NCBI GenBank assembly: GCA_016208105.1
Contig: JACQYS010000003.1
Coordinates: 1 to 64,000, forward strand
Length of the DNA: 64,000 nt
Direction of reading: 5' to 3'
Source: Desulfovibrio sp.
GTDB taxonomy: Bacteria; Desulfobacterota; Desulfovibrionia; Desulfovibrionales; Desulfovibrionaceae
Both the position numbers and the translations under genes were made by a program. The notes under the pieces are model-generated. The model ran no database searches. It was given only the letters and a program-made list of their open reading frames with translations, and was not told where the DNA came from. This document shows, piece after piece, positions 4,564 to 27,099 of the stretch; the stretch's first letter is position 1; every line of letters begins with the position of its first letter.

Positions 4564-4724
4564 GACGGACAAATGCGTTCGGACCGGACGCGAATTGTCC
4601 GCAATGCATTCAGCTGCTCTATGTGATGTCGAGAAAAGATAATTGGTCCGAGTAGTTTACAATTCGGAGACATTGGCCTAGAGAAAAAGGACCATAGGGG
4701 GGAATTTTTTCACAAGGGGCAGTC

Positions 4725-8027: not shown

Positions 8028-8098
8028 CTGTCAATCTTGACATAGTAAGGCGTCCGCTGGCAAGTATAGTGAAATTCTTCCCAACAAGGAAAGCAGTG

Positions 8099-10996: not shown

Positions 10997-11079
10997 TTTT
11001 TACACTTCTTCTTGTGTTCGATTTGGCTTGTGTGTACTGATTTGTTATCGCTCTAAAGTGTGCAGGCCAGGAGCCGGAC

Positions 11080-12504: not shown

Positions 12505-12510
12505 CCGCAA

Positions 12511-12921
12511 ATGCCTTCGCGATATCTTGACGCGGTCCGCAAGCCCGGACAGACAGTGAACCCCCTCTTCAACTTTCTCGGTATTGATTTCAGGGAAGTA
12601 GGCCCGCAGCGCGTGGTGCTGGCGCTCCCGTTCAGGCCGGAATTCATTCAGGGAGCCGGGGCTGTGGCTGGCGGGATTATGGCTGCCCTGGCCGATGAAG
12701 CCATGGCCCATGTGATTCTGGCCAATCTTGCCGAGGGCCAAAAAACAGCCACCATAGAGATGACCGTGCGCTACCACCGTCCGGTGCTCGAGGGCGGGCT
12801 TACGGCCGTGGCCGAAGTGGTGAACAAGGGGCGTCGCATCATTTCCGCCGAGGCCGTGGTCTCGGATTCCAAGGATCGCAAAGTGGCCAAAGCCGGAGGC
12901 TCTTTCTTCATTTTGGAATAG
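12511..12921 (+). CDS. PaaI-like hotdog-fold thioesterase
   Basis: A 136-residue single hotdog domain with the pattern FNFLGIDFREVGPQRV, then GAGAVAGGIMAALADEAMAHV, then TIEMTVRYHRPV. This resembles the PaaI/YdiI acyl-CoA thioesterase group; the catalytic acidic residue is likely Asp in the ALADEA helix. Function is release of CoA from an acyl or aryl thioester; the substrate is unknown. It follows the histidine kinase by six bases and ends at a terminator. Confidence 0.82.
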   Translation: MPSRYLDAVRKPGQTVNPLFNFLGIDFREVGPQRVVLALPFRPEFIQGAGAVAGGIMAALADEAMAHVILANLAEGQKTATIEMTVRYHRPVLEGGLTAVAEVVNKGRRIISAEAVVSDSKDRKVAKAGGSFFILE

Positions 12922-12960
12922 CCGGGGAACGTGGTCTGGCTCTGAAGGCGCAAAGGGAGA

Positions 12961-12998
12961 GCCCCGGTGAGTGGATCCTCATCGGGGCCTTTTCATTT
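12961..12998 (+). terminator. Rho-independent terminator between convergent genes
   Basis: An 11-pair stem (12961-12971 with 12978-12988, one G-U pair) is followed by cttttcattt. It sits after the thioesterase gene and before the end of the minus-strand uspA gene, and may stop transcription from the plus side. Confidence 0.8.
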
Positions 12999-13018
12999 GG
13001 AAATTGGCGGATACGAAA

Positions 13019-13432
13019 TCAGCGTATAACCAGCACGGAACACTTGGCATGGGCCACCACTTTGCTGGCCACGCTTCCTATGAGGAACCGGTCCAGACCG
13101 GTCTTCGCGCGGCTGCCCATGACGATGAGGTCCACACCTTCCTTTTCCGCAAAGGTCAGAATGGAGTCCGCCGGCGACGAACCGTAGTCCATCACCGTTT
13201 TGGCCTCCACGCCCAGGGATTTGGACATGCGTCCGGCAGACTCCAGGCTCTTTTCAGCCTGCTTTTTAATCTGCTCGGTCAAGGCCAGGGTGATCCCCTC
13301 GCCGAAATCAATGAAGTCTTCAGCCACGGTGAGCAGAATAAGCTCCGCCTTCTGCCATTTGGCCAGTTCCACGGCTTTTTCCACAACGAGCTGGATTTGA
13401 GAGGAGAGGTCGAGACAGGCTAAAATCTTCAT
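13019..13432 (-). CDS. Universal stress protein, UspA family (second copy of the operon)
   Basis: A 137-residue single Usp domain. It starts MKILACLDLS and ends with the nucleotide-binding pattern GSRAKTGLDRFLIGSVASKVVAHAKCSVLVIR-like, i.e. G-2x-G/T-9x-G-S. It is closely similar to the product at 16664-17080 (same ends, same LLTVAEDF core), so the two are likely duplicates. It is the last gene of the seven-gene minus-strand run. Usp proteins bind ATP and respond to energy or redox stress; a specific partner cannot be named. Confidence 0.92.
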   Translation of the reverse strand: MKILACLDLSSQIQLVVEKAVELAKWQKAELILLTVAEDFIDFGEGITLALTEQIKKQAEKSLESAGRMSKSLGVEAKTVMDYGSSPADSILTFAEKEGVDLIVMGSRAKTGLDRFLIGSVASKVVAHAKCSVLVIR

Positions 13433-13464
13433 GGTGCACCTCCCGCCGGTTCAGCGAACCGGGC

Positions 13465-14295
13465 TTATGATTCGGCGTCAGCCCCGGGGAGGGGCGAATC
13501 GCCGGAAGAGAGAATGACCATGTCGCCAATTTTGCAGGAGCCCGAGACAATGCGCGCGGTGGCGTCTTCGGACATGCTCGCGGTCACTTGAGCTTCGCCG
13601 ATCGCCTGGCCGGCCGTGTCGTAAATGCGCACGGTCATTCCCGGAGAAAGGCCCTGTTTTGATCCAAGAGAGAAGGCGATATCAGAACCTTCCTCGGTCT
13701 TTTTCAACATGTAGATTAGCGCCTTTCCTTCAAGAGTCAACATCCTGTCGATACGTCTGCTCAGAAGAAACCCTCCGAACCCTCCGGGCACGGCGAGAAG
13801 AACGCAGAAAACGCACGCCGCGAAGGGATTGTAGCCGAACGTGCGAGTGATGAAAGATTGGGAGGCCAGGCGCAATGAAAGCTCGTCTTCGTGAACGGTG
13901 ACCAAGAACGTTATGGGACCAGAATTTTTGGAAGGCTTTTCAAGAGGAGGTCCTTCGATGACTATGGTTCTCGCCCCGGGCTTAGCAGTGCTGGACACGA
14001 CGAAGGAGCCGCGCCACATGTTGCCCCCGAGCCAAAAACCGGAGAACAGGCTTTCGGGTACCAGGCTGACCGCCTCGTCCGCGCCCCGGATGCGCATCTC
14101 CTCGATGGTGGTGGCCCCGGGTGGGAGATAGGAAGTCACCGGAATGGTGGTCCCGGGGATGGCCTGGAATTCGCGCCCCTCGCCCTTGAAGCCCATGGCC
14201 AATGCATCAGCCAGGCACGCCAGGGCGGCGAAAAGCAGCGCTGCAGTTACCCAGCCGAGTGCTTTTCGGAGTTGCAGCGCTTGATAAATGTTCAT
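13465..14295 (-). CDS. Membrane protein of unknown function with large extracytoplasmic domain
   Basis: A 276-residue protein. TM1 lies at about residues 14-34 and TM2 at about 160-182 (the PFAACVFCVLLAVPGGFGGFLL region). The intervening about 125 residues should face the periplasm and look beta-rich. The C-terminal about 95 residues are cytoplasmic, with a segment like a small beta domain (GLSPGMTVRIYDTAGQAIGEA). The start ATG overlaps the stop of the upstream small gene (ATGA), so translation is coupled. The family is not recognised. Context ties it to the TauE/Usp operon. Confidence 0.75.
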   Translation of the reverse strand: MNIYQALQLRKALGWVTAALLFAALACLADALAMGFKGEGREFQAIPGTTIPVTSYLPPGATTIEEMRIRGADEAVSLVPESLFSGFWLGGNMWRGSFVVSSTAKPGARTIVIEGPPLEKPSKNSGPITFLVTVHEDELSLRLASQSFITRTFGYNPFAACVFCVLLAVPGGFGGFLLSRRIDRMLTLEGKALIYMLKKTEEGSDIAFSLGSKQGLSPGMTVRIYDTAGQAIGEAQVTASMSEDATARIVSGSCKIGDMVILSSGDSPLPGADAES

Positions 14296-14516
14296 GAACC
14301 CGAGGCTGCTTCCGGCGTGGGGCTATTCTTGTCGCGCAGAAGCCTGATCAGGGTAAACCCGGCGATCAGGGTGGGCACGAGGAGCGTGAAGAAGCTTCTG
14401 CAAAAGGCCACAGTAAAGTTGTCGGGATCGAGGGAGGCGGAGTGCATGCCCACGCATAACTCGGCCAGTATGGCTACGTCTACCGCGATTACCGTCAACT
14501 TCTGCCGAGTGTTCAT
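14292..14516 (-). CDS. Small two-helix membrane protein
   Basis: 74 residues from ATG 14516, preceded by aggag. Two hydrophobic helices (about residues 7-25 and 35-60) are separated by a polar stretch with HSASLDPDNF. A longer upstream frame exists but lacks a ribosome site and would be a Pro-rich artefact. It is coupled to the next gene by an ATGA overlap. Function unknown; it could be an accessory subunit of the operon's membrane proteins. Confidence 0.7.
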   Translation of the reverse strand: MNTRQKLTVIAVDVAILAELCVGMHSASLDPDNFTVAFCRSFFTLLVPTLIAGFTLIRLLRDKNSPTPEAASGS

Positions 14517-14563
14517 GTCTTGATCTCCTGTTGGAATCCGGGGCCGGAGGGCCGGTGGAGTTG

Positions 14564-14636
14564 GGGGGGCCGATTGAACCGGCCCCCCGGCCTCGGACGG
14601 TGCGGCAACCCGGGCCCGGTGGGGTGTGGGCCCGGG
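14564..14636 (-). repeat. Two tandem GC-only hairpins inside the operon
   Basis: The 127-base gap between the lipoprotein gene and the small membrane gene holds two perfect nine-pair stems: 14564-14572 with 14580-14588, and 14609-14617 with 14628-14636. Neither is followed by a U-tract on the minus strand. They may be RNA-processing or stability elements, or a leaky terminator that lowers expression of the last three genes. Role is inferred. Confidence 0.6.
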
Positions 14637-14643
14637 AAGCATT

Positions 14644-15246
14644 CTACTTCTTGAAGATGTCGGTTTTGGTGATGTTCATGAACCTGAGGGATTTGCCGTC
14701 TTCCTTGTAGTACACGCGGATTTCGTCGCCGGCGTCCCAGGCGGAATCAGGCAGGGCCATGTATTCGTCGGGCACACTGAAGGTGCACAGCATCTTCTGG
14801 CGGCCGGAATAGATGGTCACGGTCTTCTTGGCCTTGTCGACCTGCGGGAACACCTTGGCCTTGCCGGTATCCTTGTCGAACACCAGGGGGTGGTTCCTGT
14901 CCACGTTCTCCTGGAGGTCGTGGATCTTGAAGGCGATGGTCTTGAAGGCCTGTGCCTGCGGATCATACAGCACGATCTGGCTCTTCTGCGTGTCGAGCTT
15001 CATGCGCAGGCCGGCCTTGGGCTCCGGACCCATTTCCTCGTAGACAGTCGGGATGGAGTAGGTCACCGCGGGCAGGCCCGTATAGTCGGGATTCATGGGT
15101 TCGGCTTTCTTGTCACGGATGATCGTCACTTTTCCGGCCTGCTTGTCGAAGGCCACCACACGGCCTTGGTCCACCTTGCCGTACTCGCCGCATCCGAAGA
15201 GGAATGCCAGCGACAAGGCGGCCACGAGAAGGGATATACGCTTCAT
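14644..15246 (-). CDS. Lipoprotein, DUF4881-like
   Basis: 200 residues. The second of two close ATG codons (15246) is chosen because aaggag then lies eight bases upstream; the ATG at 15252 would be only two bases away. The lipobox is LAFLFGC, so the mature protein starts with Cys-Gly-Glu. The rest is beta-rich and charged (GRVVAFDKQAGKVTIIRDKK, then a repeated motif around KAKVFPQVDKAKKTVTI). It resembles a lipoprotein family typical of Desulfovibrio. Proximity to the TauE-type permease suggests a periplasmic partner for anion export. Function unproven. Confidence 0.82.
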   Translation of the reverse strand: MKRISLLVAALSLAFLFGCGEYGKVDQGRVVAFDKQAGKVTIIRDKKAEPMNPDYTGLPAVTYSIPTVYEEMGPEPKAGLRMKLDTQKSQIVLYDPQAQAFKTIAFKIHDLQENVDRNHPLVFDKDTGKAKVFPQVDKAKKTVTIYSGRQKMLCTFSVPDEYMALPDSAWDAGDEIRVYYKEDGKSLRFMNITKTDIFKK

Positions 15247-15270
15247 GTTCATTGCTCCTTGGCTTGTCGC

Positions 15271-16326
15271 CTATTTCGTGGCCTTCTTGGCGGCCAGTTC
15301 CCTCTTGGCTCCCTGCACCATCTTCACGGCGATGTATAAACTCATGGCGGTGACGAGCCCGAGGACCAGGGTGGTGGAGGCGACGTCCATGGCCTTGTTC
15401 AGGTCCTTGTAGGCGGCTCCCAGGAGCTTCATGGCGATGGAGACGGCGCAGCCGATGACCGCGAGGCCGAAGGCGATGCGGATGCCGTAGCCCTTGATGT
15501 ACTTGGTGGCCACTGCGCCCACCTGGGCCCCGACGGAGGCGCCGCAGAGCATGATGATGGCTGCCACCAGCTCGGTGCGGCCTTTATACGTGTAGGAGCC
15601 GGCGCCATACAGACCGGAGATCATAACCTCGAACAGGTCGGTGCCAACGGCCACGTGGGTCGGGCAGCCCATCAGGTAGATAAGGGCGGGCATGCGGATA
15701 AGGCCGCCGCCGATGCCCAGAATGCCTGCCAGCCAGCCGGTGAAGAAGCTCACCATGATCGGGAGCCAAGCGGAGCAGTAGATGCCCGCGACTTCCAGGT
15801 TCACCATGGGAGGAATCTTAATCTTGTGCAGGGTCTTGTGCCATTCAATGCCGGTGGCCAGAGCGTCCACTTCCTGGCCGGCGGCCTTGGCGGCCTTTTC
15901 TTTCTGGCGGCGCTTGTTGACGTCATGGAACACCATCCAGGCGATGGCGAACAAGAGGCCCAGATAGATGTAGCGCACGACTTTTTCGACACTGCCCAGG
16001 CGTTCAAGCCACATGATCATCTGGGCGCCCACTTCGAAGCCGCCCACTGTGCCCACGATCATGATGACGCCGAGCTTGTAGTCCACGTTGCCGAATTTAC
16101 CGTGGCGCAGGGTGGAGATGAGGGACTTGCCCGCCATGTGGGCGATGTCCGTGCCGATGGCGAAGGCCATGGGGAAGCCCAGGATGTTAAGGCCCGGGGT
16201 GACCATCCAGGCGCCGCCCATGCCGAAGAATCCGCCGATGATGCCGACGCCCACGCCCAGGATCACCAGGCCGGGCCAGAAGATTTTCACGCCCGCGATG
16301 GGCATCAGGATATAGAGCCATTCCAT
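15271..16326 (-). CDS. TauE/SafE-family sulfite/anion exporter
   Basis: A 351-residue membrane protein with two homologous halves. Each half starts with the family glycine-rich motif: GIIGGFFGMGGAWMVTP near residue 30 and GILGIGGGLIRMPAL near 205. Each then has a conserved TD segment (AIGTDIAHM and AVGTDLFEV). About eight to nine helices are separated by a soluble loop (about 135-180). The family moves sulfite, sulfonates or related anions. In a sulfate reducer, sulfite or thiosulfate handling is plausible but inferred. It lies between the small membrane gene and the lipoprotein, each gap under 30 bases. Confidence 0.9.
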   Translation of the reverse strand: MEWLYILMPIAGVKIFWPGLVILGVGVGIIGGFFGMGGAWMVTPGLNILGFPMAFAIGTDIAHMAGKSLISTLRHGKFGNVDYKLGVIMIVGTVGGFEVGAQMIMWLERLGSVEKVVRYIYLGLLFAIAWMVFHDVNKRRQKEKAAKAAGQEVDALATGIEWHKTLHKIKIPPMVNLEVAGIYCSAWLPIMVSFFTGWLAGILGIGGGLIRMPALIYLMGCPTHVAVGTDLFEVMISGLYGAGSYTYKGRTELVAAIIMLCGASVGAQVGAVATKYIKGYGIRIAFGLAVIGCAVSIAMKLLGAAYKDLNKAMDVASTTLVLGLVTAMSLYIAVKMVQGAKRELAAKKATK

Positions 16327-16346
16327 GTCGTATCTCCTTTAGCGGC

Positions 16347-16637
16347 TTAGTGTTCCGCCAAATCGCGGGACTTGAGGTCCAGGCCAATCCAGTTCATCAC
16401 GATGTCCGCCAGCACGCCGAAGAGGATGCCGATGGTGGGGATAAGGATGACTGTAAGAACGGTGAAGTACAGGTGGCTTTCATTGTAGAGATTGGCCCAC
16501 CAAGCCATGATTCCGTCGAGCTTGCGGGTGTCGGCCACGATGACGATGGGGGCTCCGCCTCCGCCTGCCGCCAGGGCCAGGCCCGGCACGGTCAGGGCCA
16601 GTATCAGGGCCCAGAACAGCTGTTTGATTCTTTTCAT
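16347..16637 (-). CDS. Small membrane protein with signal-like N-terminus, operon partner of TauE
   Basis: 96 residues from ATG 16637, eight bases after aaggag. A signal peptide or first helix (about residues 5-23, ending in LALAAGGGG) is followed by a short periplasmic stretch. A strong helix (about 57-80, TVLTVILIPTIGILFGVLAD) and a cytoplasmic tail ending LKSRDLAEH follow. It sits between uspA and the TauE-type permease with gaps under 30 bases. No family recognised; it is probably a small subunit of the same membrane complex. Confidence 0.75.
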   Translation of the reverse strand: MKRIKQLFWALILALTVPGLALAAGGGGAPIVIVADTRKLDGIMAWWANLYNESHLYFTVLTVILIPTIGILFGVLADIVMNWIGLDLKSRDLAEH

Positions 16638-16663
16638 GGTCTTCTCCTTAATATGGTGTTCTG

Positions 16664-17080
16664 TTACCTGATGACCAGGACGGAGCACGGCGCGTGGCTC
16701 ACGACCTTGGACGTCACACTGCCAACCAAAAATCTGTCGATTCCTTTCTTGCCCCTGCTGCCCATGATGATGAGGTCGATGCCCTTGTCGGTAGCGTAGC
16801 GGACGATGATGTCAGCTGGAGAAATTCCCTGTTCCACCTCGGTCTTGGCATCGATGCCCATGCCCTTGGCCGCGGCCTTGGCTTCTTCCGCGGCTTTCTT
16901 GGCTGCGGATAAGAACTTGTCGGTAACGCTGGCCGAGTCCATGAAATCGCCGATGTCCTTGAAGTCCTCGGCCACAGTGAGCAGGATAAGTTCAGCTCCC
17001 TGTTGCTTGGCTGTTGCCACCGCCTTTTCCAGGACTGTCTTGGACGATGCCGAGAGGTCCAGTGCCGCCAGAATTTTCAT
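16664..17080 (-). CDS. Universal stress protein, UspA family (first gene of sigma-54 operon)
   Basis: 138 residues from ATG 17080, directly after ggagg. An apparent longer frame to 17296 runs through the promoter region and is rejected. Single Usp domain: MKILAALDLS start, LLTVAEDF, then GSRGKKGIDRFLVGSVTSKVVSHAPCSVLVIR-like nucleotide-binding end. A near-perfect sigma-54 promoter sits about 53-68 bases upstream of the start codon. It is therefore likely the first gene of the run down to 13019, under control of the divergent AAA+ activator. Confidence 0.93.
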   Translation of the reverse strand: MKILAALDLSASSKTVLEKAVATAKQQGAELILLTVAEDFKDIGDFMDSASVTDKFLSAAKKAAEEAKAAAKGMGIDAKTEVEQGISPADIIVRYATDKGIDLIIMGSRGKKGIDRFLVGSVTSKVVSHAPCSVLVIR

Positions 17081-17132
17081 ACGTCCTCCTCCACTAATTG
17101 TGTGGTTTATGAACACGCTTGCGGCCTTCGAT

Positions 17133-17148
17133 AGCAACCAATGTGCCA
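17133..17148 (-). promoter_or_regulatory. Sigma-54 promoter of the uspA-tauE operon
   Basis: On the minus strand the sequence is TGGCAC-ATTGG-TTGCT. This matches the -24/-12 consensus TGGCAC-N5-TTGCW exactly, including GG and GC ten bases apart. The inferred start of transcription is about 12 bases downstream (near 17121), leaving about 40 bases of leader with a good ribosome site. The gene divergent from it encodes a sigma-54-type activator. Confidence 0.88.
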
Positions 17149-17159
17149 CGAAATAGAAC

Positions 17160-17188
17160 TTGACGGATTCATTGATGAATTCTAGGGT
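17160..17188 (+). promoter_or_regulatory. Possible sigma-70 promoter for the activator gene
   Basis: TTGACG (17160-17165), a 17-base spacer, then TAGGGT (17183-17188). The -35 is 5/6 and the -10 only 3/6, so this is weak. It overlaps the region just upstream of the sigma-54 promoter and the TTGCGC elements, which would allow autoregulation. Confidence 0.3.
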
Positions 17189-17262
17189 CGCGCAAGAATG
17201 CGCCAGGGTGTTGCTGTGTATGGCGCGTGATTGTTGCGCGTCTTGCGCATTTGTCGCGCAAG
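17189..17262. promoter_or_regulatory. Cluster of TTGCGC(A/G) elements: candidate enhancer/operator
   Basis: Four copies of TTGCGCR: forward at 17234 and 17243 and inverted at 17189-17196 and 17255-17262 (CGCGCAAG). They lie between the divergent uspA operon and the activator gene, about 40-115 bases upstream of the sigma-54 promoter, as expected for an activator binding site. Two more copies lie before the gene at 19834. The natural candidate to bind them is the winged-helix-like domain of the activator. Inference from repetition and position. Confidence 0.6.
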
Positions 17263-17275
17263 CAAGGAGAGGGTC

Positions 17276-19783
17276 ATGGGGTTTCTCACGCCGCAACGTC
17301 CCATTCGGGGCAGCATGGTGGACCGCCTGAGCGACATGTCCGGCTGGAGTCTGCGCACAAAGCTTCTGGCCGTCATCCTCCCTTTGATCACGTTAGTGCT
17401 CCTTGGCACTGGTTACGCCACGAAGGTGGTTTCCGGCCGGTATTTGGGCATGGCTTTGGAGAGGACCACCAAAGTCCTGACCATGGGGCAGGCCGATGCC
17501 GTAGCCGATCTTTTCGAGCAGGCCCGGCAGGATATCCTCCTGTTGGCCCGTGGGGGGAGAAGCGCGGAAGCCATCCGTCAGTTCATGGGCGTTCAGTCCC
17601 ACATCAAGCCCGGCGTCTACCGGGAAGTCGCTTATCTTTCAGTGGGAGGTGAAACCCAGGAACTCTTCGTGCATACCGGCCGGGATCTCTGCGCCGTGGC
17701 CAGGGAGCAGGCACACAGGATTATCAACTCAGCCATACTGGCGCCTGCCAAGATGGTTGATCAAAGACCCGGTATCGTGGATTTGCTGGATATTACGGAA
17801 GTCATTTTCCCTCCAGGACTTCTACAGGGGGCAGGCGCCGGCATAACCTTCACAGTGTACCGGCTGGTTACCCCGGTCGCGGACGCGCAGGGAAAAATTG
17901 CCGGATATTGGATACTTTCGATGGATGCCCGGGCTTCGCGGGATGTCCTCTCTCTCTACAATTCACCCCAATCTCCTTTGGCCGCATTTCCGCGCACCTC
18001 GGAAAAACGCTACAGTTTCTTCTTCGACCACAACGGATGGATCCTTTTTCAATCAGGGAATATGGAGGAGCGCGAGCTTCCACTCTCCACGGATTTGGCC
18101 CGGTCCGGCCTCACGGGGGACCACGGCATGCCGGGTTATCCCGGGGCCTTCCGCCCATCTGCCGCCAACGAAGCCTATTGGCGCATGGTTGTGGACATTC
18201 AGGCCGGGCGTACCGGCATTGAAAGCGTGAGCCCGGAACTGGATATCACCATGGGTGGCCCTGGCAGTTATTCCCTCGGTTTCGCGCCGGTGCTTTTCCG
18301 GACCGACCCGGACAGGCCTCCGGAAGTCTTTGGCGGAGTGGCCTTCATGGACAAATCCCGCCTGTTGCTGGCTGCGGATTACCGGATATACGACGTGTTG
18401 CTGGTGATATTCATCATTGCGGTAACGCTCACCGGGGCGATCGTTTTTTTTGTCGGGCGCAGCATCACGCGGCCCTTGTTCAACCTGGCCGCGAGCGTGA
18501 GAAGCATGCCCGGTGAGGGGGGACTCAAGCCCATAGACCTGCCCGTTCGCGACAAGGAGACCACAATCCTGAAGGAGTCCATCAACCATCTTGTGGAAGC
18601 GATTCTGTACCAGCGGGAGGAATTGCGCCTCAAGGACGCGCATCTTCAGGACCAGTTGCGCCGCCAGCCCCTTGACCTGGAGGAGAAGCTTTCCTCATCT
18701 GTCGATATAGAGCCCATGGAGGGAATCATCGGAGCAAGCCCGGCCATGCGCGATTTGAAATGGCTCATCCGAAAAGCCGCCTCCGTCGACCCGGACGTGC
18801 TCATCATCGGGGAAACCGGTACCGGCAAGGAAGTTACCGCCCAGGCCATCCACAAACTTTCCAGCAGATCGGGCGGCCCGTTCATTTCCATCAACTGCGG
18901 GGCTCTGGACGAAAACCTGCTTCTGGACGCCTTGTTCGGCCATGTGAAGGGAGCCTTCTCCGAGGCGAAGGGGGACCGGAAAGGAGCTTTTCTGGCAGCC
19001 CACGGTGGCACGATATTGCTGGATGAAATCGGTAATGCATCGGCCAAAGTACAGCAGGCTTTGCTCAGGGCCTTGGCAGCTCGAACCATCATCCCGCTGG
19101 GCAGCGATACGGAAGTGCCCTTTGACGCCCGCATCATCGCGGCCACCAACGTGGAACTTCTGGATTGCGTGGAAAATGGCACGTTCAGGGAAGATCTGTA
19201 CTATCGGTTGCGGGTATTAACCCTGCATACACCTCCATTGCGCGATCGCATGGAAGACATCCCTTTGCTGGCGGACGCCTTTTTGAAGGAATCGGCCAAG
19301 GTGATGAACAAACCCGTGCTCACCCTTTCGCGAGGAGCTTGGGAGCGCATAGCCACGCACGACTGGCCTGGAAATGTGCGCGAGCTCAAGCACTGCCTCA
19401 TGCGGGCGGTCGCCATGACGGATTCCAACATGATTTTTGTGGAAGACCTGCGTTTTGACGCGCAAACGCCCTCTTTGGAATGGAAAGTATCCTCCTCGGA
19501 ACGTCCCAAGGAGCTGCCCTCGGCAGCCAGCAGCGCTCCCGACAAAAGCGCCCTGGGGCAAGATGACGGGCTGAACGACCGCCAGCGCAAAGGTCTGGTC
19601 TATCTTCGGGAAAACGGCACCATGTCCCGGTCCCAATACCAGGCGATCGTTGGCCAAAATGTTCCGCCTAGAACCGCACAATATGATCTGCGCGATCTTG
19701 TGGAACAGGGATTGCTGCAGGTAAAAGGACGTGGACCAGCTACGCGGTATATTCTGGCCGGAGACCAGTCTGGCGTGAAATGA
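17276..19783 (+). CDS. Membrane-anchored sigma-54-type AAA+ transcription activator with periplasmic sensor and winged helix
   Basis: 835 residues from ATG 17276 (aaggag upstream). TM1 is at about 25-45. A periplasmic Cache-like sensor domain (about 45-365) is followed by TM2 (about 372-395), a HAMP-like linker, and an AAA+ domain (about 480-710). AAA+ motifs: Walker A GETGTGKE (about 512-519), Walker B TILLDEIG, and R-finger region FREDLYYRL. The sigma-54 contact loop reads GAFSEA (559-564) instead of GAFTGA. The C-terminus is not a Fis-type HTH; it looks like a winged helix (LNDRQRKGLVYLRENGTMSR onward). It senses a signal outside the cell without a kinase step. Likely target: the adjacent sigma-54 promoter. 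Confidence 0.88.
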   Translation: MGFLTPQRPIRGSMVDRLSDMSGWSLRTKLLAVILPLITLVLLGTGYATKVVSGRYLGMALERTTKVLTMGQADAVADLFEQARQDILLLARGGRSAEAIRQFMGVQSHIKPGVYREVAYLSVGGETQELFVHTGRDLCAVAREQAHRIINSAILAPAKMVDQRPGIVDLLDITEVIFPPGLLQGAGAGITFTVYRLVTPVADAQGKIAGYWILSMDARASRDVLSLYNSPQSPLAAFPRTSEKRYSFFFDHNGWILFQSGNMEERELPLSTDLARSGLTGDHGMPGYPGAFRPSAANEAYWRMVVDIQAGRTGIESVSPELDITMGGPGSYSLGFAPVLFRTDPDRPPEVFGGVAFMDKSRLLLAADYRIYDVLLVIFIIAVTLTGAIVFFVGRSITRPLFNLAASVRSMPGEGGLKPIDLPVRDKETTILKESINHLVEAILYQREELRLKDAHLQDQLRRQPLDLEEKLSSSVDIEPMEGIIGASPAMRDLKWLIRKAASVDPDVLIIGETGTGKEVTAQAIHKLSSRSGGPFISINCGALDENLLLDALFGHVKGAFSEAKGDRKGAFLAAHGGTILLDEIGNASAKVQQALLRALAARTIIPLGSDTEVPFDARIIAATNVELLDCVENGTFREDLYYRLRVLTLHTPPLRDRMEDIPLLADAFLKESAKVMNKPVLTLSRGAWERIATHDWPGNVRELKHCLMRAVAMTDSNMIFVEDLRFDAQTPSLEWKVSSSERPKELPSAASSAPDKSALGQDDGLNDRQRKGLVYLRENGTMSRSQYQAIVGQNVPPRTAQYDLRDLVEQGLLQVKGRGPATRYILAGDQSGVK

Positions 19784-19800
19784 GAGTCTCTTTTATGGCT

Positions 19801-19821
19801 TTGCGCAGATAATTGCGCAAT
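19801..19821. promoter_or_regulatory. TTGCGCA direct and palindromic elements before the PEP-synthase-like gene
   Basis: TTGCGCA at 19801-19807 and the perfect palindrome ATTGCGCAAT at 19812-19821, twelve bases apart. They sit in the 50-base gap between the activator gene and the next gene, immediately upstream of its ribosome site. They match the elements at 17189-17262, which suggests the same regulator acts at both places. Confidence 0.5.
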
Positions 19822-19833
19822 ACGGGAGGGGGA

Positions 19834-22455
19834 ATGGCCGGAATACAAAGCCCGATCCTAAAAAATCTGAAAAGATTCTTGCGGCCGGTTTTGGGACTGC
19901 CAGCTGAACAGCCAGTTCACGATCAAGCGACATTTAGGTTTAAGTACACTAATTTCCAGGAGCTTTTGGAGTCAAACGCGGAGCTTCTCCGGATAATTAC
20001 CGCTATTGAAGAAAAACGTTCCGGCCGGGAAATTTTCGGCATGGCATTTCTTCATTCCGCTGCCAGCCAGGCTGTTTTTCACTGTCTGCGCATGGTGCGC
20101 GGTTTTGAAAACCTTTCCGGGAGAGAACAGCGCGTTTTGCGCGATCGCATAGAAACCGTGCGCGAGGAACTCAAGAAATCCCTTGCCAGCGAACCCCGGC
20201 CCCTTGGTCCTTGGTTCAAGGATTTTAGTGAGATAGTGGCATCAGATGCCGAGTTGGTTGGCGGCAAATGCGCCAATTTGGGTGAATTGCGCAATCGCGC
20301 AGGACTCCCGGTGCCCGAAGGTTTCGCGATTACCACCTCGGCGTTTCACGCATTTCTCTCCCAATCGGATTTGGCCGCTGAAATCGCCAAAAGAACCATG
20401 TCGCTCGATCCCGCCGATACCGGTTCCATTCAGGAAGCCAGCGAAGACATTCAGCGGCTTCTTCTGCTCGCGCCCTTTGCGGATGGCTTCGAGCAACAGT
20501 TGCTCGGCCATCATGAACGTTTGGCCGAGCGTCTGGGGGGGACGCCCGAAACCATTTCCGTGGCCATGCGCTCCAGCGCTGTTGGAGAAGACAGCGAGTT
20601 GACCTTCGCGGGACAGTATCTCTCGGTTCTCGGAGTCACTCGGGCCAAACTGGCGGAAAGCTACCGCTATGTTGTGGCCAGCCTCTTTACCCCGAGAGCC
20701 ATGGCTTACCGGCTCCTCAAAGGTGTTCCCGATGAAGCCACCGCCATGAGCGTGGCCTGTCTGGCCATGGTGCCTTCAAAGGCGAGCGGAGTCATGTACA
20801 CCCGCCATCCCTTCAATCCCGAGGATCAGAACATACTGATCAATGCCGTGTGGGGGTTGGGACCATACGCTGTGGACGGCGTGGTCACTCCGAACCGGTA
20901 TGTTGTGCGCAAACAATCGCTGGACATAGTCTCGATGGATATCGCCGAGCAGCCCGTGCTTCTTTCTTGCCAGCCTGGGGGGGGAGTCGCCCAGGCGACA
21001 GTGGAGAATGCTTTGGCCAAGCAGGCGTGCTTGACCGAGGACCAAATACGCACCCTGGCCGAGTGGGGCGCTCGTCTCGAAAACCACTACGGCAAACCCC
21101 AGGATGTGGAATGGGCCTTGGACGACAAGGATCAGTTCGTCCTGCTGCAATCGCGTCCGTTGGGAGGACCTCTCCTGGAAGCATCCCACCACCGCGGGCC
21201 TGAGCCTGCAGTTGCGGGGCAAAAGGTGGTGCTTGAGGGGGGAGACGCCGCCTGCCCAGGCAGTGGAAGCGGCGAAGTGTTCCATTACAGCAAGGATGAC
21301 GACTTGGCGGGATTCCCCGACGGCGCCGTCCTGGTCGCTCCTCACTCATCTCCAAAATTCATGGTGGTCATGACAAAGGCGAGCGCCATCGTCACGGATC
21401 ATGGGAGCGTAACCGGCCATATGGCGTCGCTCTCCAGGGAGTTCAATGTCCCCACCATTCTGGGCATTGAAAACGCCACCAAAGTATTGCGATCCGGCAC
21501 CATCGTCACTGTGGACGCCGATAACCGCCGTATCTATTCGGGAAGGGTCGCGGAGTTGCTTGATTCTAAGCCCCAGGCCCCGACCCCCATGATCGGTACG
21601 CAAGTCTACGCAATGCTGGAGAAGGTCTTCGCCCTTCTCGCACCGCTGAACCTCATCGACCCCAAGGCTCAAGAGTTCAGCCCCTCGCATTGCCGGACTT
21701 TGCACGACATCACCCGTTACCTGCACGAGAAATCCTACGCCGAAATGTTCACGCTGGGCGACCAGGCCTCCGGGATGGGCGGAATGGCGGTTCGCCTGGA
21801 AGCCGGTGTTGGTCTCGATCTTCATGTCATCGATCTGGGCGGCGGATTGGCGGAGGGTGTGGCTGAAAAAGAGAGTGCACAGCTTTCAGAGGTTGTTTCC
21901 AGGCCCTTCAAGGCGGTGCTGCAGGGCCTGGCTGATGAAGAATTCGTGGCCAAGGGGCCAAGGCCGGTCCAGCTTCGGGGGTTTCTGTCCGTCATGGGGC
22001 GGCAGATGGTGGACGGGGCGAGCATGTCCGCTGAACGTTTCGGGGACAAGAGTTATGCCATCGTGTCGGATAAATACCTGAACTTCAGCTCGCGGGTCGG
22101 CTACCATTACGGAGTTCTCGACAGCTACTGTGGAAACTCCGTGAGCAAGAACTACATAACCTTTGCCTTCAAAGGGGGGGCGGCCGGTGAGGACCGCCGG
22201 GAACGCAGAGCCAGGGCCATCGCCCTTATTCTGGAAAAGCTGGGGTTTGCCGTGAACGTGAATGCGGACAGGGTTGAGGGAAGATTCCAGAAATACCCGG
22301 CGGATCTTATTGAAAGCCATCTGGTGCAGTTGGGGAGGCTGCTGCAGTTCACGCGGCAGACGGACATGCTCATGACCAGCGAACACGCGGTACAGGCCAT
22401 GGCTGAAAGCTTTTTGCGCGGGGAGAGGGTGTTCGGCCAGAAACGGGAAGAATAG
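19834..22455 (+). CDS. PEP-synthase-like protein: ATP-grasp and phosphohistidine domains without the PEP/pyruvate barrel
   Basis: 873 residues; ATG 19834 follows a ggaggggg ribosome site. The N-terminal 130 residues are of unknown fold. Next comes a PPDK/PpsA-type nucleotide-binding domain (about 135-460; GGKCANLGEL, AMRSSAVGED, GVMYTRHPFNPED, QDVEWALDD..LLQSRP). A swivelling phosphohistidine domain follows (TDHGSVTGHMASLSREFNVP, His kept). The C-terminal about 270 residues do not resemble the PEP/pyruvate TIM barrel and lack its CGQ-type active-site Cys motif. It could phosphorylate a different acceptor, as rifampin phosphotransferase or water dikinases do. A true PEP synthase lies at 57671. 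Confidence 0.83.
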   Translation: MAGIQSPILKNLKRFLRPVLGLPAEQPVHDQATFRFKYTNFQELLESNAELLRIITAIEEKRSGREIFGMAFLHSAASQAVFHCLRMVRGFENLSGREQRVLRDRIETVREELKKSLASEPRPLGPWFKDFSEIVASDAELVGGKCANLGELRNRAGLPVPEGFAITTSAFHAFLSQSDLAAEIAKRTMSLDPADTGSIQEASEDIQRLLLLAPFADGFEQQLLGHHERLAERLGGTPETISVAMRSSAVGEDSELTFAGQYLSVLGVTRAKLAESYRYVVASLFTPRAMAYRLLKGVPDEATAMSVACLAMVPSKASGVMYTRHPFNPEDQNILINAVWGLGPYAVDGVVTPNRYVVRKQSLDIVSMDIAEQPVLLSCQPGGGVAQATVENALAKQACLTEDQIRTLAEWGARLENHYGKPQDVEWALDDKDQFVLLQSRPLGGPLLEASHHRGPEPAVAGQKVVLEGGDAACPGSGSGEVFHYSKDDDLAGFPDGAVLVAPHSSPKFMVVMTKASAIVTDHGSVTGHMASLSREFNVPTILGIENATKVLRSGTIVTVDADNRRIYSGRVAELLDSKPQAPTPMIGTQVYAMLEKVFALLAPLNLIDPKAQEFSPSHCRTLHDITRYLHEKSYAEMFTLGDQASGMGGMAVRLEAGVGLDLHVIDLGGGLAEGVAEKESAQLSEVVSRPFKAVLQGLADEEFVAKGPRPVQLRGFLSVMGRQMVDGASMSAERFGDKSYAIVSDKYLNFSSRVGYHYGVLDSYCGNSVSKNYITFAFKGGAAGEDRRERRARAIALILEKLGFAVNVNADRVEGRFQKYPADLIESHLVQLGRLLQFTRQTDMLMTSEHAVQAMAESFLRGERVFGQKREE

Positions 22456-22462
22456 GCAGGCA

Positions 22463-22481
22463 GCCGGCCTCTTCGGCCGGC
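22463..22481. terminator. Hairpin between convergent genes
   Basis: A seven-pair stem (gccggcc, 22463-22469, with 22475-22481) and five-base loop lies between the end of the PEP-synthase-like gene and the end of the minus-strand response regulator. There is no clear T-run, so termination is only likely. Confidence 0.45.
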
Positions 22482-22512
22482 GCCCGGCCTAATCTCGACG
22501 CGCCTGGGCTTT

Positions 22513-22902
22513 CTACCGCACTGACCGTGCGGCCCTGCGTTCCATGGCCGAAAGGATCTTGGCTTCCACTTCTCCAGTTGGGCAGGGTTTGAGCAGGTAG
22601 TCCGACCCCCCTCTGCCCATTATTTCCGCAGCGATATCCACCGAGGCGTGGCCAGTGAGGATGATCACCTCCAGTTCCGGATCGAGCTTCTTGAGTTCGG
22701 CCAGAAGGTCCACCCCGGAAATTCCCGGCATCTTGACGTCCAGCAGGGCGACGTCGAACTTGCCCGGCTCGAAGAGCTCCAGGGCTTCTTCTCCGCTCTG
22801 GGCCGTTACGACCTGCATGTTCCTCAAGGTCAAGAGCCTTGCCAGGGTGGTTACGAAACGTTCTTCGTCGTCCACGCAGAGAAGCCGTATCGGGGTGGTC
22901 AT
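22513..22902 (-). CDS. Single-domain response regulator
   Basis: 129 residues. The ATG at 22902 starts MTTPIRLLCVDDEERF, a standard receiver start; the longer frame to 23349 runs antisense to the kinase and is rejected. The acidic pair DDE, the phosphoacceptor in ALLDVKMPGISG, the conserved Thr in ILTGHAS and Lys in LLKPC are all present. No output domain. It overlaps the end of the upstream kinase gene by four bases, so the two form a pair. Confidence 0.9.
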   Translation of the reverse strand: MTTPIRLLCVDDEERFVTTLARLLTLRNMQVVTAQSGEEALELFEPGKFDVALLDVKMPGISGVDLLAELKKLDPELEVIILTGHASVDIAAEIMGRGGSDYLLKPCPTGEVEAKILSAMERRAARSVR

Positions 22903-23795
22903 TGTTTGGTCTCCGTTTGCTTGGTGGCCACGGGCAGAGAGATGGTGAAAGCCGCGCCTTTGCCCGGCTGGTTCGCCGCACTGATGAACCCGCCCAGGCG
23001 GTCCACGATTCGCTGGGTTATGGAAAGCCCGAGGCCAGTGCCTTTTCCCGGGGCCTTGGTGGTGAAGAATGGGTCGAAGACGCGGCTTAAGTTTGCGGCT
23101 GGAATGCCGGGGCCATCGTCCATCACCCGCACGAATACATCGCCGTCCGGGGCGCGTCCTGTACGGACGGTGACGTTTCCGTCCTTGCCCACGGCCTGTA
23201 CGGCGTTCACCAGCAGATTGAGCACTGCCTGCCTGAACAGGGGAGGGTCGAGCGGGACCTTGGGAAGGGACGCCTCGAAGTCTCGGATCAGGGCAATGTT
23301 GTTTGGCTTGGCTTCGCGTTCTACAAGGCGGGCCATGTCCTCGACGCAACGGTTCAAGTCCGTGGGCTGCCGGACAGGTTTCCAGGTGCGGGCCAAGTTG
23401 AGCAGGTTATGGGTGATGTCCGCGCAGCGGTTCACCTGCGACTGTACGGACGACAGACTCTGGCGCACATCGTCTAAGGGCGGCGCCTCAAGGGAGAGCA
23501 GATGCGCCATCCATTCAGACTCCTGGGTGATGACGGCCAGCGGGTTGTTTATCTCATGGGCGATACCCGAAGCGATCTCTCCGATGGCGGCCAGTTTTTG
23601 TGATTGGAACAATTGTTCGTCTAGGGCGCATTTCTGCGATTCGGAACGGCTCAGGCATGCCTTGAGCTCCTTAAACGATAGCCAAGCGGACCAGGCCGCC
23701 AGCAATGCCAATGCCAGGGACCACGGCGTGGGAGCAAGGGCGGCCCCCACAGCCAAGATTCCGGTAGCGATGGTAAGCGTGTGCGGATTAATCAT
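22899..23795 (-). CDS. Membrane-associated sensor histidine kinase
   Basis: 298 residues from ATG 23795 (a TTG three codons earlier is an alternative). N-terminal hydrophobic segments (about 5-45) may form two helices with almost no periplasmic loop. A coiled region leads to the H-box AIGEIASGIAHEINNPLAVI and then the N, G1, F and G2 boxes (NLLVNAVQAVG, DDGPGIP, FDPFFTTK, GTGLGLSI). The start overlaps the upstream response regulator by eight bases. With so little input domain, it may sense membrane state or be driven by partners. Confidence 0.88.
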   Translation of the reverse strand: MINPHTLTIATGILAVGAALAPTPWSLALALLAAWSAWLSFKELKACLSRSESQKCALDEQLFQSQKLAAIGEIASGIAHEINNPLAVITQESEWMAHLLSLEAPPLDDVRQSLSSVQSQVNRCADITHNLLNLARTWKPVRQPTDLNRCVEDMARLVEREAKPNNIALIRDFEASLPKVPLDPPLFRQAVLNLLVNAVQAVGKDGNVTVRTGRAPDGDVFVRVMDDGPGIPAANLSRVFDPFFTTKAPGKGTGLGLSITQRIVDRLGGFISAANQPGKGAAFTISLPVATKQTETKQ

Positions 23796-24177
23796 TCCCG
23801 GCAACGATGATTTTGCGTTCGTACGCTTGTGCTATGGCCCCGAGAAGCTCTTCAAAGTCAACTGGTTTGATGAGGTAGGCGTTGGCTCCCATGGACATGC
23901 CCTGGACGCCCGATTCCACGGATGCGTGCCCTGTGAGCAGGATTACCTCCACACCCGGATAACGCCTCTTCACCTCCCTGAGAACCTCGATGCCGTCCAT
24001 GCCGGGCATCATGATGTCCAAAAGGGCCACGTCGAACGCCTGCCGGGACAGGATTTCAAGCGCGGCAGGTCCTGAAAGCGCGGTTTCCGCGTAAAAACCC
24101 CGGCGCGTCAGGCGCTTCACGATGGTTTCGTTGAAGTCCCTCTCATCGTCAACGACTAGAACCCTCGCCTGTACCAT
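23788..24177 (-). CDS. Single-domain response regulator
   Basis: 129 residues: VLVVDDERDFNETI acidic pocket, phosphoacceptor Asp in ALLDIMMPGMDG, LLTGHAS and LIKPVDF. Closely related to the product at 22513-22902 (same LLD-MMPG and TGHAS pattern). It lies 15 bases after the large Cache kinase and overlaps the next kinase gene. The order kinase-regulator-kinase-regulator suggests a phosphorelay. Confidence 0.9.
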   Translation of the reverse strand: MVQARVLVVDDERDFNETIVKRLTRRGFYAETALSGPAALEILSRQAFDVALLDIMMPGMDGIEVLREVKRRYPGVEVILLTGHASVESGVQGMSMGANAYLIKPVDFEELLGAIAQAYERKIIVAGND

Positions 24178-24192
24178 TCTGTCCCCCCCGGT

Positions 24193-25851
24193 TCAGACTG
24201 ATGCTGGAATGATTACTGTGAATGTCGTTCCTTCGCCCACGGTGCTGGTCACGTTGATGCGGCCTCCGAGCTTTTCAATAATGCCGAAGGCGATGGACAG
24301 GCCGAGTCCGGTGCCTTCACCAGGCTTTTTGGTGGTGAAGAATGGGTCGAATATATTGTTCAGTGTCTCAGGAGGGATACCGCATCCAGTATCCGTGAAG
24401 ACAGCGGATATTTCATGGCGGGAACTGTCGTAGCTGGTGGTGAGTGAGAGTTGTCCGTTCTTGCCGATGGCGTCGATGGCGTTGTCGATGAGGTTCAAAA
24501 ACACCTGTTGCAGCTGGGTGGGGTCGGAATTGGTGGTGGGCAGATTATCGGCAAGATTATGGCGGATGTCGATATTTCTGAGCAGTGCCTCGGTCTTTAG
24601 GAATTGAACGGTTTCGGCGAGCAGCTTGCTCACGTCCACGGCCTGCATGACAGGTTCCATGCGCCGGGCGAAGCCCAGCATGCGGTGGGTGACGTTTTTT
24701 GCCCGCTCCACGTGGTGCTCGATGCGGTGAACCGAGTCCGAAATCTCCTTGAATTGCGGGATGGCCTTGACCTCGGGTTCCTCCATGAGGTCTTTGATCC
24801 AGCCCGCCTGCTCGCGGATGATTGCCAGCGGGTTGTTTATCTCATGGGCAACGCCCGCGGCCATCTTGCCCAAAGCGGCCATCTTGCCGGACTGGGTGAG
24901 GTTGGCGTCCAGGTTCGCCTTTTCGCGTTCGGCGTTTTCCAGCCTGCGGACCATTGAGTTGGTGACCAGAACCGTTCCGGCGATGATAAGGGCCACGCCT
25001 CCGGCCAGTACGATCCAGATAAGGTGTTCAGCCTCGAACAGAGGGCGCAGTTCCTCCTCCGGGTCCTCCCGGATGACCAGAAGCCAGTCCTTGTTCTCGA
25101 TCCAGGTCCAGCCGTAGAGGTAGCGGCGGTGGTTCACCACCAGATCCTGCACGCGTGCTCCTGAAAACCGGGTGTCCACCCTGAAAGGCAGTTCCATGTC
25201 CTCCATCACGTTGCCGCCGAAACGGGGCTTGGTCTGGAGCATATGCTTGTCGTTTATGAGGAATGCGTCGCCTTTGCGTCCCATCTGGACTCTTTTGACA
25301 AACGATTCGAAGGCGTCGGAGTCGATGGTGGCCCGCAGAATCCAGGATTTGCCACCTTCGCGGCGCAACACTGCGATGATGATGTGGGGGTATTGCCGAA
25401 ACCCCATGAAAACGTCGGAGATGTACACTCCTTTGGCCACGACCTTGGCAAACCATTCTTCATTCTTATAGTTTATGCCGCCCAGATTGTACGGTCCGGC
25501 GTAAGCCAGATGGTTGCCGTCCAGTCCAATGACACCCAGGTCGATGTAGTACCGTGAAGTGGTCTGCATCTGGGTGAACAGGCGCTCCAGGTTCTCCCGG
25601 TCCGCGGCTTCTTCATAGGTGAGGGCGCTGGCCAGGGTGGAAAGCTGGGCCATGCGTTCCGTCAGGAAAAGGTCGATGGCGTTGCGTTTGCTTTCAACGA
25701 GGGTGCGGAGGCTGCCCTGGAGGGCGTCCTGGTAGGCGCTGGAGAAGCGTTGCTTCACCCCCAGGCCCAAAACCAGAAGAGGCAAGAGCGAGAACCCCAG
25801 GGTGAACAGGATAATGACGAAACGAAGGCGCTTGAAGTCCAGTGTTTTCAT
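24193..25851 (-). CDS. Sensor histidine kinase with periplasmic double-Cache domain
   Basis: 552 residues. TM1 lies at about 11-32. A dCache-type ligand domain (about 40-280) includes the YIDLGVIGLDGNHLAYAGPY and RRYLYGWTWIENKDWLLVIRE segments. TM2 is at about 285-305. A coiled linker leads to HisKA with H-box ALGKMAAGVAHEINNPLAII and a full HATPase domain (NLIDNAIDAIG, DTGCGIP, FDPFFTTKK, GTGLGLSIA). The ligand is likely small and extracellular (carboxylate or amine) but not known. First gene of the four-gene two-component run, divergent from a metallophosphoesterase. Confidence 0.92.
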   Translation of the reverse strand: MKTLDFKRLRFVIILFTLGFSLLPLLVLGLGVKQRFSSAYQDALQGSLRTLVESKRNAIDLFLTERMAQLSTLASALTYEEAADRENLERLFTQMQTTSRYYIDLGVIGLDGNHLAYAGPYNLGGINYKNEEWFAKVVAKGVYISDVFMGFRQYPHIIIAVLRREGGKSWILRATIDSDAFESFVKRVQMGRKGDAFLINDKHMLQTKPRFGGNVMEDMELPFRVDTRFSGARVQDLVVNHRRYLYGWTWIENKDWLLVIREDPEEELRPLFEAEHLIWIVLAGGVALIIAGTVLVTNSMVRRLENAEREKANLDANLTQSGKMAALGKMAAGVAHEINNPLAIIREQAGWIKDLMEEPEVKAIPQFKEISDSVHRIEHHVERAKNVTHRMLGFARRMEPVMQAVDVSKLLAETVQFLKTEALLRNIDIRHNLADNLPTTNSDPTQLQQVFLNLIDNAIDAIGKNGQLSLTTSYDSSRHEISAVFTDTGCGIPPETLNNIFDPFFTTKKPGEGTGLGLSIAFGIIEKLGGRINVTSTVGEGTTFTVIIPASV

Positions 25852-25965
25852 TATGCTACCAGGCTGATGTTAGATCGCGTCTCACCTTCCGTTCACCCTA
25901 TCCTCAATGGACAGGGACGGGCAAGTCTGTCAATGCTGGCGTGACCGGAACTTTGAGGTTTTTGC

Positions 25966-27099
25966 ATGACTCTTTTGGGATTTAAGGGGGTGCACCCCCT
26001 CATGGTACTCTTTTTCCCCCTCGCCGCGGCTGCGGTTCTTGGTGGTTTCTGGCTGCTCAAACGCTGCCACACCAGGATATCCACAAGACTCCGCCATGGC
26101 TATTACTGGATTTTCGGTCTGTTATGCCTGGCTGGAGTAATTGTTTACCCGCTGGTCGCCTCCTACGACTCATATCGCGTGCTGTATTTCGTATGCACCC
26201 TGGCCTGCTTCGGGGCGCTCAATGCCGCACTGGGAGCAGCCCTGCTGTTCGGATACGTTGCCAGGCCTCACCACCATGTCTCATCGAGAAGGCGATTCAT
26301 GGCGGGCGGCATGATGGCCGCGGCCGGGTCCCTGGTGTCCATGGCCGGAGTGGACGCTGCCACCGGAGAAGGGCGGGAAGTGGCAGATCGCCGGATAACA
26401 GTGAAAAGACACCCTGATGCTTCGCGCGGGCGCGAACTGCGGGTGAGCCTGGTGTCCGATCTGCACGCCGGTTTTTTCCTTCCCACAAGCCATCTGCAAG
26501 CAGCCATGAATCATATTGTGGCATTTAAGCCCGACGTTGTCCTTTTCGGTGGCGATCTCGTTGAATACGAGCTCTCCGCTCTGGACGAAACCGAATCATT
26601 TTTCCGCCAGCTCGCCGGTCTGGCCCCTGTGTATGCCGTCATCGGCAATCACGATTGCTACATCGATGCGGACGCCGTGGCAGCTTTCCACAGGGGTAAC
26701 GGCGTCACCCCCCTGCGCGGAGAGGCGGAGGCGCTTCAGGGACCATGGGGGCGTTTCACCCTTCTTGGCCTTCGCGACGTCATGGAGACCGCCGACAACT
26801 GGCAGTGCGCTCTGGAGCATGACCTTGCCTCCACCATCATGCTGGTCCACAACCCCCAGACCGTTCTGGACATGCCGGCGCAATCCGCTCCCTGGCTCTC
26901 GTTGTCGGGCCACACCCACGGCGGGCAGATGCGCCTGCCCCTGACCGGGACTCTCATCAACCAGGCAGACAGGCGGATCGTTGCCGGACTCAATGCAATC
27001 GACGGCCGGCGCATCGCTGTCACCGCTGGACTCGGATATTCCGGTTTGCCGGTCAGGCTTCTGTGCCCGCCGGACGTGACCAATCTTGTGATCTCATGA
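25966..27099 (+). CDS. Membrane-anchored metallophosphoesterase (YkuE/YaeI type)
   Basis: 377 residues. Three hydrophobic helices (about 12-30, 45-63, 73-100) are followed by a twin-arginine-like stretch (SSRRRFMAGG, about residue 105) and a hydrophobic run. The calcineurin-like domain (about 145-377) has all metal motifs: SDLHAG, GGDLVE, GNHDC, VHNP and GHTHGGQ. Related enzymes act on UDP-sugar lipids or other phosphoesters outside the membrane. The stop overlaps the next gene (ATGA), starting a three-gene coupled run. Confidence 0.86.
   Translation: MTLLGFKGVHPLMVLFFPLAAAAVLGGFWLLKRCHTRISTRLRHGYYWIFGLLCLAGVIVYPLVASYDSYRVLYFVCTLACFGALNAALGAALLFGYVARPHHHVSSRRRFMAGGMMAAAGSLVSMAGVDAATGEGREVADRRITVKRHPDASRGRELRVSLVSDLHAGFFLPTSHLQAAMNHIVAFKPDVVLFGGDLVEYELSALDETESFFRQLAGLAPVYAVIGNHDCYIDADAVAAFHRGNGVTPLRGEAEALQGPWGRFTLLGLRDVMETADNWQCALEHDLASTIMLVHNPQTVLDMPAQSAPWLSLSGHTHGGQMRLPLTGTLINQADRRIVAGLNAIDGRRIAVTAGLGYSGLPVRLLCPPDVTNLVIS

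Follow-up and report, generated by a model that had tools for sequence, protein, structure and literature searches.

A run of seven genes on the minus strand of a 64,000-nucleotide (nt) stretch of Desulfovibrio sp. DNA (contig JACQYS010000003.1, positions 1 to 64,000; hereafter the window) lies behind a conserved sigma-54 promoter, divergent from the gene of a membrane-bound activator, and includes a TauE/SafE (TSUP) permease accompanied almost invariably, in related loci, by a DVU0150-family membrane protein and a DUF4881 lipoprotein. Sequence comparison indicates that this gene cluster is found mostly in bacteria with dissimilatory sulfite reductase (dsr genes), and we consider the chances about even that it represents a regulated sulfur-oxyanion transport system of dsr-bearing bacteria. 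Gene content, promoter conservation, a repeat element, the loop variant of the activator and the association with dsrA were established by comparing loci and genomes. The features of the module are listed below.

13019-13432, minus strand: universal stress protein 2 (usp2), Pfam PF00582
13465-14295, minus strand: membrane protein of 276 amino acids, no Pfam family matched
14292-14516, minus strand: small membrane protein of about 74 amino acids, start revised from 14642 to 14516, no Pfam family matched
14644-15252, minus strand: DUF4881 lipoprotein, Pfam PF16222 (276 bits), lipobox LFGC read off the sequence
15271-16326, minus strand: TauE/SafE (TSUP) permease of 351 amino acids, Pfam PF01925 (141 bits, cut-off 32.6)
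16347-16637, minus strand: DVU0150-family small membrane protein, NCBIfam NF040783 (145.9 bits, cut-off 70; the longer open reading frame (ORF) 16347-16688 was scanned)
16664-17080, minus strand: universal stress protein 1 (usp1), Pfam PF00582 (E 1.7e-34)
17133-17148, minus strand: sigma-54 promoter TGGCAC-N5-TTGCT, TGGCACATTGGTTGCT, an exact match conserved in relatives
17190-17261, no strand: predicted activator-binding element, TTGCGC/GCGCAA in four copies, located some 40 to 115 nt upstream of the promoter
17276-19783, plus strand: one-component enhancer-binding protein with a transmembrane helix, dCache domain, second transmembrane helix, weak HAMP match, sigma-54 AAA+ domain with GAFSEA loop and a non-Fis C-terminus
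19801-19820, no strand: extra TTGCGC-N8-GCGCAA element between the activator gene and that of a phosphoenolpyruvate (PEP)-synthase-like, or dikinase-like, protein

All seven genes of the run claimed in a first-pass annotation of the window were borne out by family scans or coordinates, one start being revised, and the genes that it had placed beyond the run (the activator, the PEP-synthase-like protein and two kinase/regulator pairs) were likewise recovered by family scans. Spacing within 13019-17080 is 18-32 nt, except that two genes overlap by four bases and about 127 nt precede the small membrane protein gene.

The gene-neighborhood comparison, which the same annotation had suggested as a check, was made on loci retrieved with the TauE protein of the window, namely the best 80 of 190 relatives, with TauE identities of 72-91%; a divergent activator was present in 43 of them and no adjacent activator in 37. 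Core, promoter and activator pairing recur across these loci. Adjacency held for DVU0150 and TauE in 80/80 and for DUF4881 in 79/80, the sole miss (L073) having its contig end about 200 nt past TauE, so that DVU0150-TauE-DUF4881 is a near-invariant core of these TauE-selected loci. The remaining genes of the run are less regular: a Usp protein lies directly upstream of the core in 35 loci and the 276-residue membrane protein directly downstream in 66, homologues of the small membrane protein were found in 47 (E<=1e-5), and a downstream usp2-like copy only in L009 and L010. Apart from the module genes, the neighbors recurring in at least 15 of the 80 loci were NtrC-type activators and two groups without label, read as antisense ORFs. 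No solved structure was matched by sequence to the TauE-clade permease at E<=1.

The window contains a single exact TGGCAC-N5-TTGCW, the promoter TGGCACATTGGTTGCT, where shuffled sequences averaged 0.09 matches and 8/100 of them had one or more; this promoter is among the eight exact matches listed for the 4.18 Mb genome. When one mismatch was allowed, the genome gave 101 hits versus 106 for the reversed control; because the pattern is thus not enriched, the motif alone is weak proof. Conservation across loci, rather than the motif match, is the real evidence for a sigma-54 site here: within 350 nt of sequence preceding the operon, 38/43 activator loci have a site that departs from the consensus at no more than one position, 11 of them exact, against 0/43 on the reverse strand.

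The 38 activator loci with such a site, together with the window, provided 39 regions for counting TTGCGC/GCGCAA (L011, L044, L045, L052 and L088, which have an activator and no site within one mismatch, were left out). Two or more copies were present in 33/39 regions and at least one in 35/39, compared with a chance mean of 3.8 regions with two or more copies (200 order-1 resamplings) and with 5% of 2478 control pieces of 250 nt from the same loci. We consider the repeated TTGCGC the likely binding element of the divergent activator, to judge from this distribution, against which stand the four regions devoid of it and two with a single copy. The element at 19801-19820 is possibly a further binding site; any TTGCGC copy occurred in just 12/40 of the orthologous regions upstream of the dikinase-like gene.

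That the promoter is instead driven by a different enhancer-binding protein, one that might receive its signal from either of the kinase pairs, is very improbable. Other activators do seem able to serve it, since 18 of the 37 loci without an adjacent activator keep a site of at most one mismatch, and NtrC-type AAA+ matches lie close by in some loci. However, the two or more TTGCGC copies go with the divergent activator, 16 of those 18 loci having none, and in the two exceptions the sequence starts only 541 and 412 nt upstream of the operon, cut by the contig end, so that an activator gene would not be visible; moreover, both response regulators of the window lack an output domain. In seven loci (L012, L015, L041, L054, L057, L062 and L071) the one-component activator is missing and NtrC-type AAA+ and receiver matches plus a kinase lie upstream; five of the seven still have a sigma-54 site within one mismatch, a pattern resembling an exchange of the activator.

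The sigma-54 AAA+ domain of the window's activator was matched by PF00158 with 197 bits, whereas the HAMP match stayed below its cut-off. Its sensor had no Pfam Cache match, and an hhalign fit to the dCache profile of the neighboring kinase HK2 failed (probability 3.7); a later fold comparison of the structural model predicted a dCache fold, that is, a double PAS-like periplasmic domain, flanked by predicted transmembrane helices. Across 39 activators the GAFTGA-type loop read GAFSEA in 22, the window included, GAFSDA in seven, GAFTEA in seven and GAHSEA in two, with one unparsed, which defines a shared GAF[ST][ED]A-type loop. GAFSEA was counted among loop variants expected to retain activity (PMC4641369). 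No Fis-type domain was matched in Pfam, either with the full-length protein or, at E<=10, with its final 100 residues; these residues gave a weak HTH_20 match (E 0.019), and the C-terminus of DVU0151 orthologues is described as a winged helix (PMC4641369). Promoter conservation and activator domains together uphold the earlier proposal of sigma-54 control by a divergent, membrane-bound one-component activator, with its promoter at 17133-17148 on the minus strand.

The distribution of the cluster was surveyed in 296 sampled genomes of the phylum to which the window belongs, taken to be Desulfobacterota from the names of its nearest loci, with TauE presence scored at E<=1e-100. TauE was detected in 56 genomes, of which 40 form a clade of 70-100% identity, all with DUF4881; a second group comprises 18 copies at 60-67% identity, two of them second copies. 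The dsrA gene scored over its cut-off in 55/56 TauE genomes versus 146/296 overall (Fisher 8e-19, kinship uncorrected), and the one remaining TauE genome (G264) carries aprA. DUF4881 was spread over 13 families, in a set of 41 genomes from which the weak matches in G103 and G268 were left out, that in G103 passing the cut-off only when summed with its neighbors in frame. Among these 41 genomes, only G262 (contig C110, 34230-34751) has DUF4881 and no TauE at the above threshold. The L070 genome is titled Nitrospirae; in its phylum, DUF4881 was found in 4/148 genomes, all four with dsrA matches, over the cut-off in three and in two pieces below it in G299; overall, 72/148 genomes of that phylum reached the cut-off (Fisher 0.054). 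Of 12 genomes behind selected loci, nine had dsrA over the cut-off, and in G299 the gene is split over two contigs.

A different kind of host was provided by L047, a locus in a betaproteobacterial metagenome-assembled genome (MAG) in which the core lies inside a cys sulfate-assimilation cluster (4901-17194) with two CysB-family regulators, cysteine synthase, (P)APS reductase, O-acetylhomoserine sulfhydrylase and a sulfate-type CysA, as well as a nitrite/sulfite-reductase-type hemoprotein below curated cut-offs. Directly upstream of the core, a dCache kinase and a LuxR-type regulator take the place of the sigma-54 activator, and no promoter match is closer than two mismatches. TauE at E<=1e-130 was found in 1/300 sampled genomes of the host's order. 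The MAG carries dsrA, followed by genes whose sequences were read as dsrB and DsrC; between these two stand DsrE and DsrH family genes, an order that we take to be the oxidative arrangement. Though a single locus, it ties the permease to sulfur oxyanions in a host unlike the others. The sulfur-anion link of the first-pass annotation is thereby backed by dsrA co-occurrence and by the cys context of L047, while the specific substrate that it had named, sulfite or a sulfonate, falls outside that support, as do its suggestions of export, of a stress role and of an energy-state role for the Usp proteins, which stand immediately upstream in just 35/80 loci.

A sulfur oxyanion is, in our view, rather likely to be the transported substrate, probably sulfate or sulfite, as the gene contexts suggest. 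Inward transport is assigned more tentatively, at somewhat less than even confidence: because the core of L047 lies among sulfate-assimilation genes, uptake is favored over sulfite export. Export of sulfite, or of an organosulfonate, guarding the cell against sulfite build-up would agree with the name of the Pfam family, Sulfite exporter TauE/SafE, and, since sulfite is an intermediate of both the reductive and the oxidative dsr pathways, the dsr link fits it equally well, being compatible with uptake and export alike. Yet a family name is no tested function, uptake is the simpler reading in L047, and CysZ of Corynebacterium glutamicum, described as a sulfate transporter, appears in the same TSUP tree (PMC5840216); we regard export as somewhat unlikely. 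Sulfate-uptake proteins of dissimilatory sulfate reducers were reported as still unidentified in 2018 (PMC5840216).

The module might alternatively handle another anion, such as an organic acid, or respond to general energy limitation, the dsr link then reflecting host ecology only. In its favor, a link to energy or envelope status is suggested by the Usp and dikinase-like proteins and by the kinase pairs; in D. vulgaris, co-regulation with lactate metabolism is reported for two transporters of the PSE family (PMC4641369); and the ligands of the dCache relatives among the PDB matches listed are amino acids, putrescine, histamine or lactate. Against this explanation, which we hold to be unlikely, speak the 55/56 dsrA association and the cys context of L047, with DUF4881 as constant partner across 13 families of the sample.

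Several observations weigh against a sulfur-oxyanion transport system. The cys context comes from one locus, the dsrA association is uncorrected for phylogeny, and 91/296 genomes have dsrA over the cut-off and lack this TauE, which is therefore dispensable for sulfate reduction as such. The remaining two of the 12 genomes behind selected loci fall short of the dsrA cut-off: an Azonexus MAG (L080, G298), which has the core, lacks an aprA match as well, and the neighboring ApbE and GshA in L080 are not sulfate genes; G303 gave only pieces of aprA. No recurring sulfate-reduction gene was found near the module in the 80 loci, where clusters of at most five loci were left unannotated.

If the module does serve sulfur-oxyanion transport, a periplasmic signal would be read by the dCache domain of the activator, whose C-terminal domain would bind the repeated TTGCGC elements upstream of the promoter; ATP-driven remodelling of the sigma-54 holoenzyme through the GAFSEA loop would then open transcription at 17133-17148. 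The output would be the TSUP permease with its DVU0150-type and DUF4881 partners and the further membrane and Usp proteins, and sulfate or sulfite would be moved inward under some condition of sulfur-oxyanion supply. The genes following the activator may or may not take part, any role of theirs in the module being conjectural; they are as follows.

19834-22455, plus strand: PEP-synthase-like protein with a helical N-terminal domain, ATP-grasp, phospho-His domain and an unannotated C-terminal part of about 280 amino acids
22513-22902, minus strand: single-domain response regulator RR1, Pfam PF00072
22899-23804, minus strand: histidine kinase HK1, Pfam HisKA and HATPase_c
23788-24177, minus strand: single-domain response regulator RR2, Pfam PF00072
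24193-25851, minus strand: histidine kinase HK2 with a periplasmic dCache_1 domain, Pfam PF02743 (E 4.6e-15)

The PEP-synthase-like gene lies after the activator in the same direction. The assignment made in the first-pass annotation holds for its ATP-grasp (PF01326, ATP-binding) and phospho-His (PF00391) domains, with H529 invariant in 41 aligned sequences, and fails for the pyruvate part: no pyruvate-binding Pfam domain was recognized in the whole protein or its C-terminal part, and the score against the curated PEP_synth family, 315 bits, is below the cut-off of 739.75. A well-conserved unannotated C-terminal region (21583-22455) sits where the pyruvate domain would be; it matched neither a Pfam family over its cut-off nor, at E<=10, a PDB sequence, and the matches listed in fold searches with the whole model were taken up by its ATP-grasp and His domains. 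At E<=1e-15 the region was found in 110/296 genomes, often as multiple copies (up to at least eight), and it lies within 13 kb of TauE in at least 33/40 cases for the 70-100% clade and at least 13/18 for the 60-67% group. A sigma-54 promoter considered for this gene (match at 19701-19716) was dropped, as it lies inside the activator coding sequence and a site of at most one mismatch was found in just 7/40 orthologous regions. The kinase/regulator pairs are encoded on the opposite strand, convergent with the PEP-synthase-like gene, RR1 and RR2 being bare receivers. The order HK2-RR2-HK1-RR1 was found in 3/80 loci by a strict script and by eye in at least ten (L013, L015, L041, L051, L054, L055, L059, L062, L071 and L085); the cassette is thus recurrent and outside the constant core. 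An extended scheme, in which the system is dedicated to sulfate uptake in dissimilatory sulfate reducers, dCache activators sense the supply of sulfur oxyanions directly and the dikinase-like protein, as a new ATP-to-histidine phosphotransfer protein, tunes transport or regulators, seems to us quite unlikely.

An Rfam scan of 12900-26000 gave nothing convincing. A separate observation concerns L003 (729-2262; genome G000, contig C5, about 3970-5500), where three units stand in tandem about 616-660 nt apart. Each combines an inverted repeat resembling GTAAAAGTTTTTTTAC with an exact sigma-54 promoter, a short leader that contains TTCCTCCTTTTG, and a terminator-like hairpin. The hairpins are strong (minimum free energies -28.5, -28.1 and -21.5; z -5.9, -5.1 and -3.6), and the three units have the appearance of small RNA genes dependent on sigma-54; L003 gave no Rfam match at E<=1.

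The first-pass annotation had considered the function of this combination of genes not settled. Indeed, no functional study of the module, of its D. vulgaris counterpart or of DUF4881 was found in the literature searched; the regulon as such, however, had been predicted in 2015, as DVU0151 acting on DVU0150-DVU0146 in Desulfovibrio vulgaris Hildenborough (PMC4641369). The window fits that pattern, with a DVU0150-family gene under a sigma-54 promoter divergent from a one-component GAFSEA activator that lacks a Fis-type domain, and differs from it in two added usp genes. Beyond that prediction, our analysis adds the predicted sensor fold, the family of loop variants, the TTGCGC repeats, the constancy of the core and the association with dsrA and with cys genes; possibly, the TTGCGC element is already among the binding motifs reconstructed for 19 regulators in that work (PMC4641369). 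Its compactness, its strong tie to dsrA and the counterpart predicted in D. vulgaris Hildenborough (PMC4641369) make the role of the module directly testable. Its permease resembles other TSUP permeases, C. glutamicum CysZ among them, in family (PF01925) and sulfur-anion context, and differs in belonging to a clade with constant DVU0150 and DUF4881 partners. Unlike PEP synthase and rifampin phosphotransferase, the dikinase-like protein has the conserved C-terminal region of about 280 residues in place of a pyruvate-binding domain, pointing to an unnamed family. Likewise, the sensor shares its predicted fold with dCache chemoreceptors and sensor kinases but is here joined to an enhancer-binding protein, pointing to a type of activator in which a periplasmic sensor goes together with a GAFTGA loop of shifted sequence and with a predicted DNA element.

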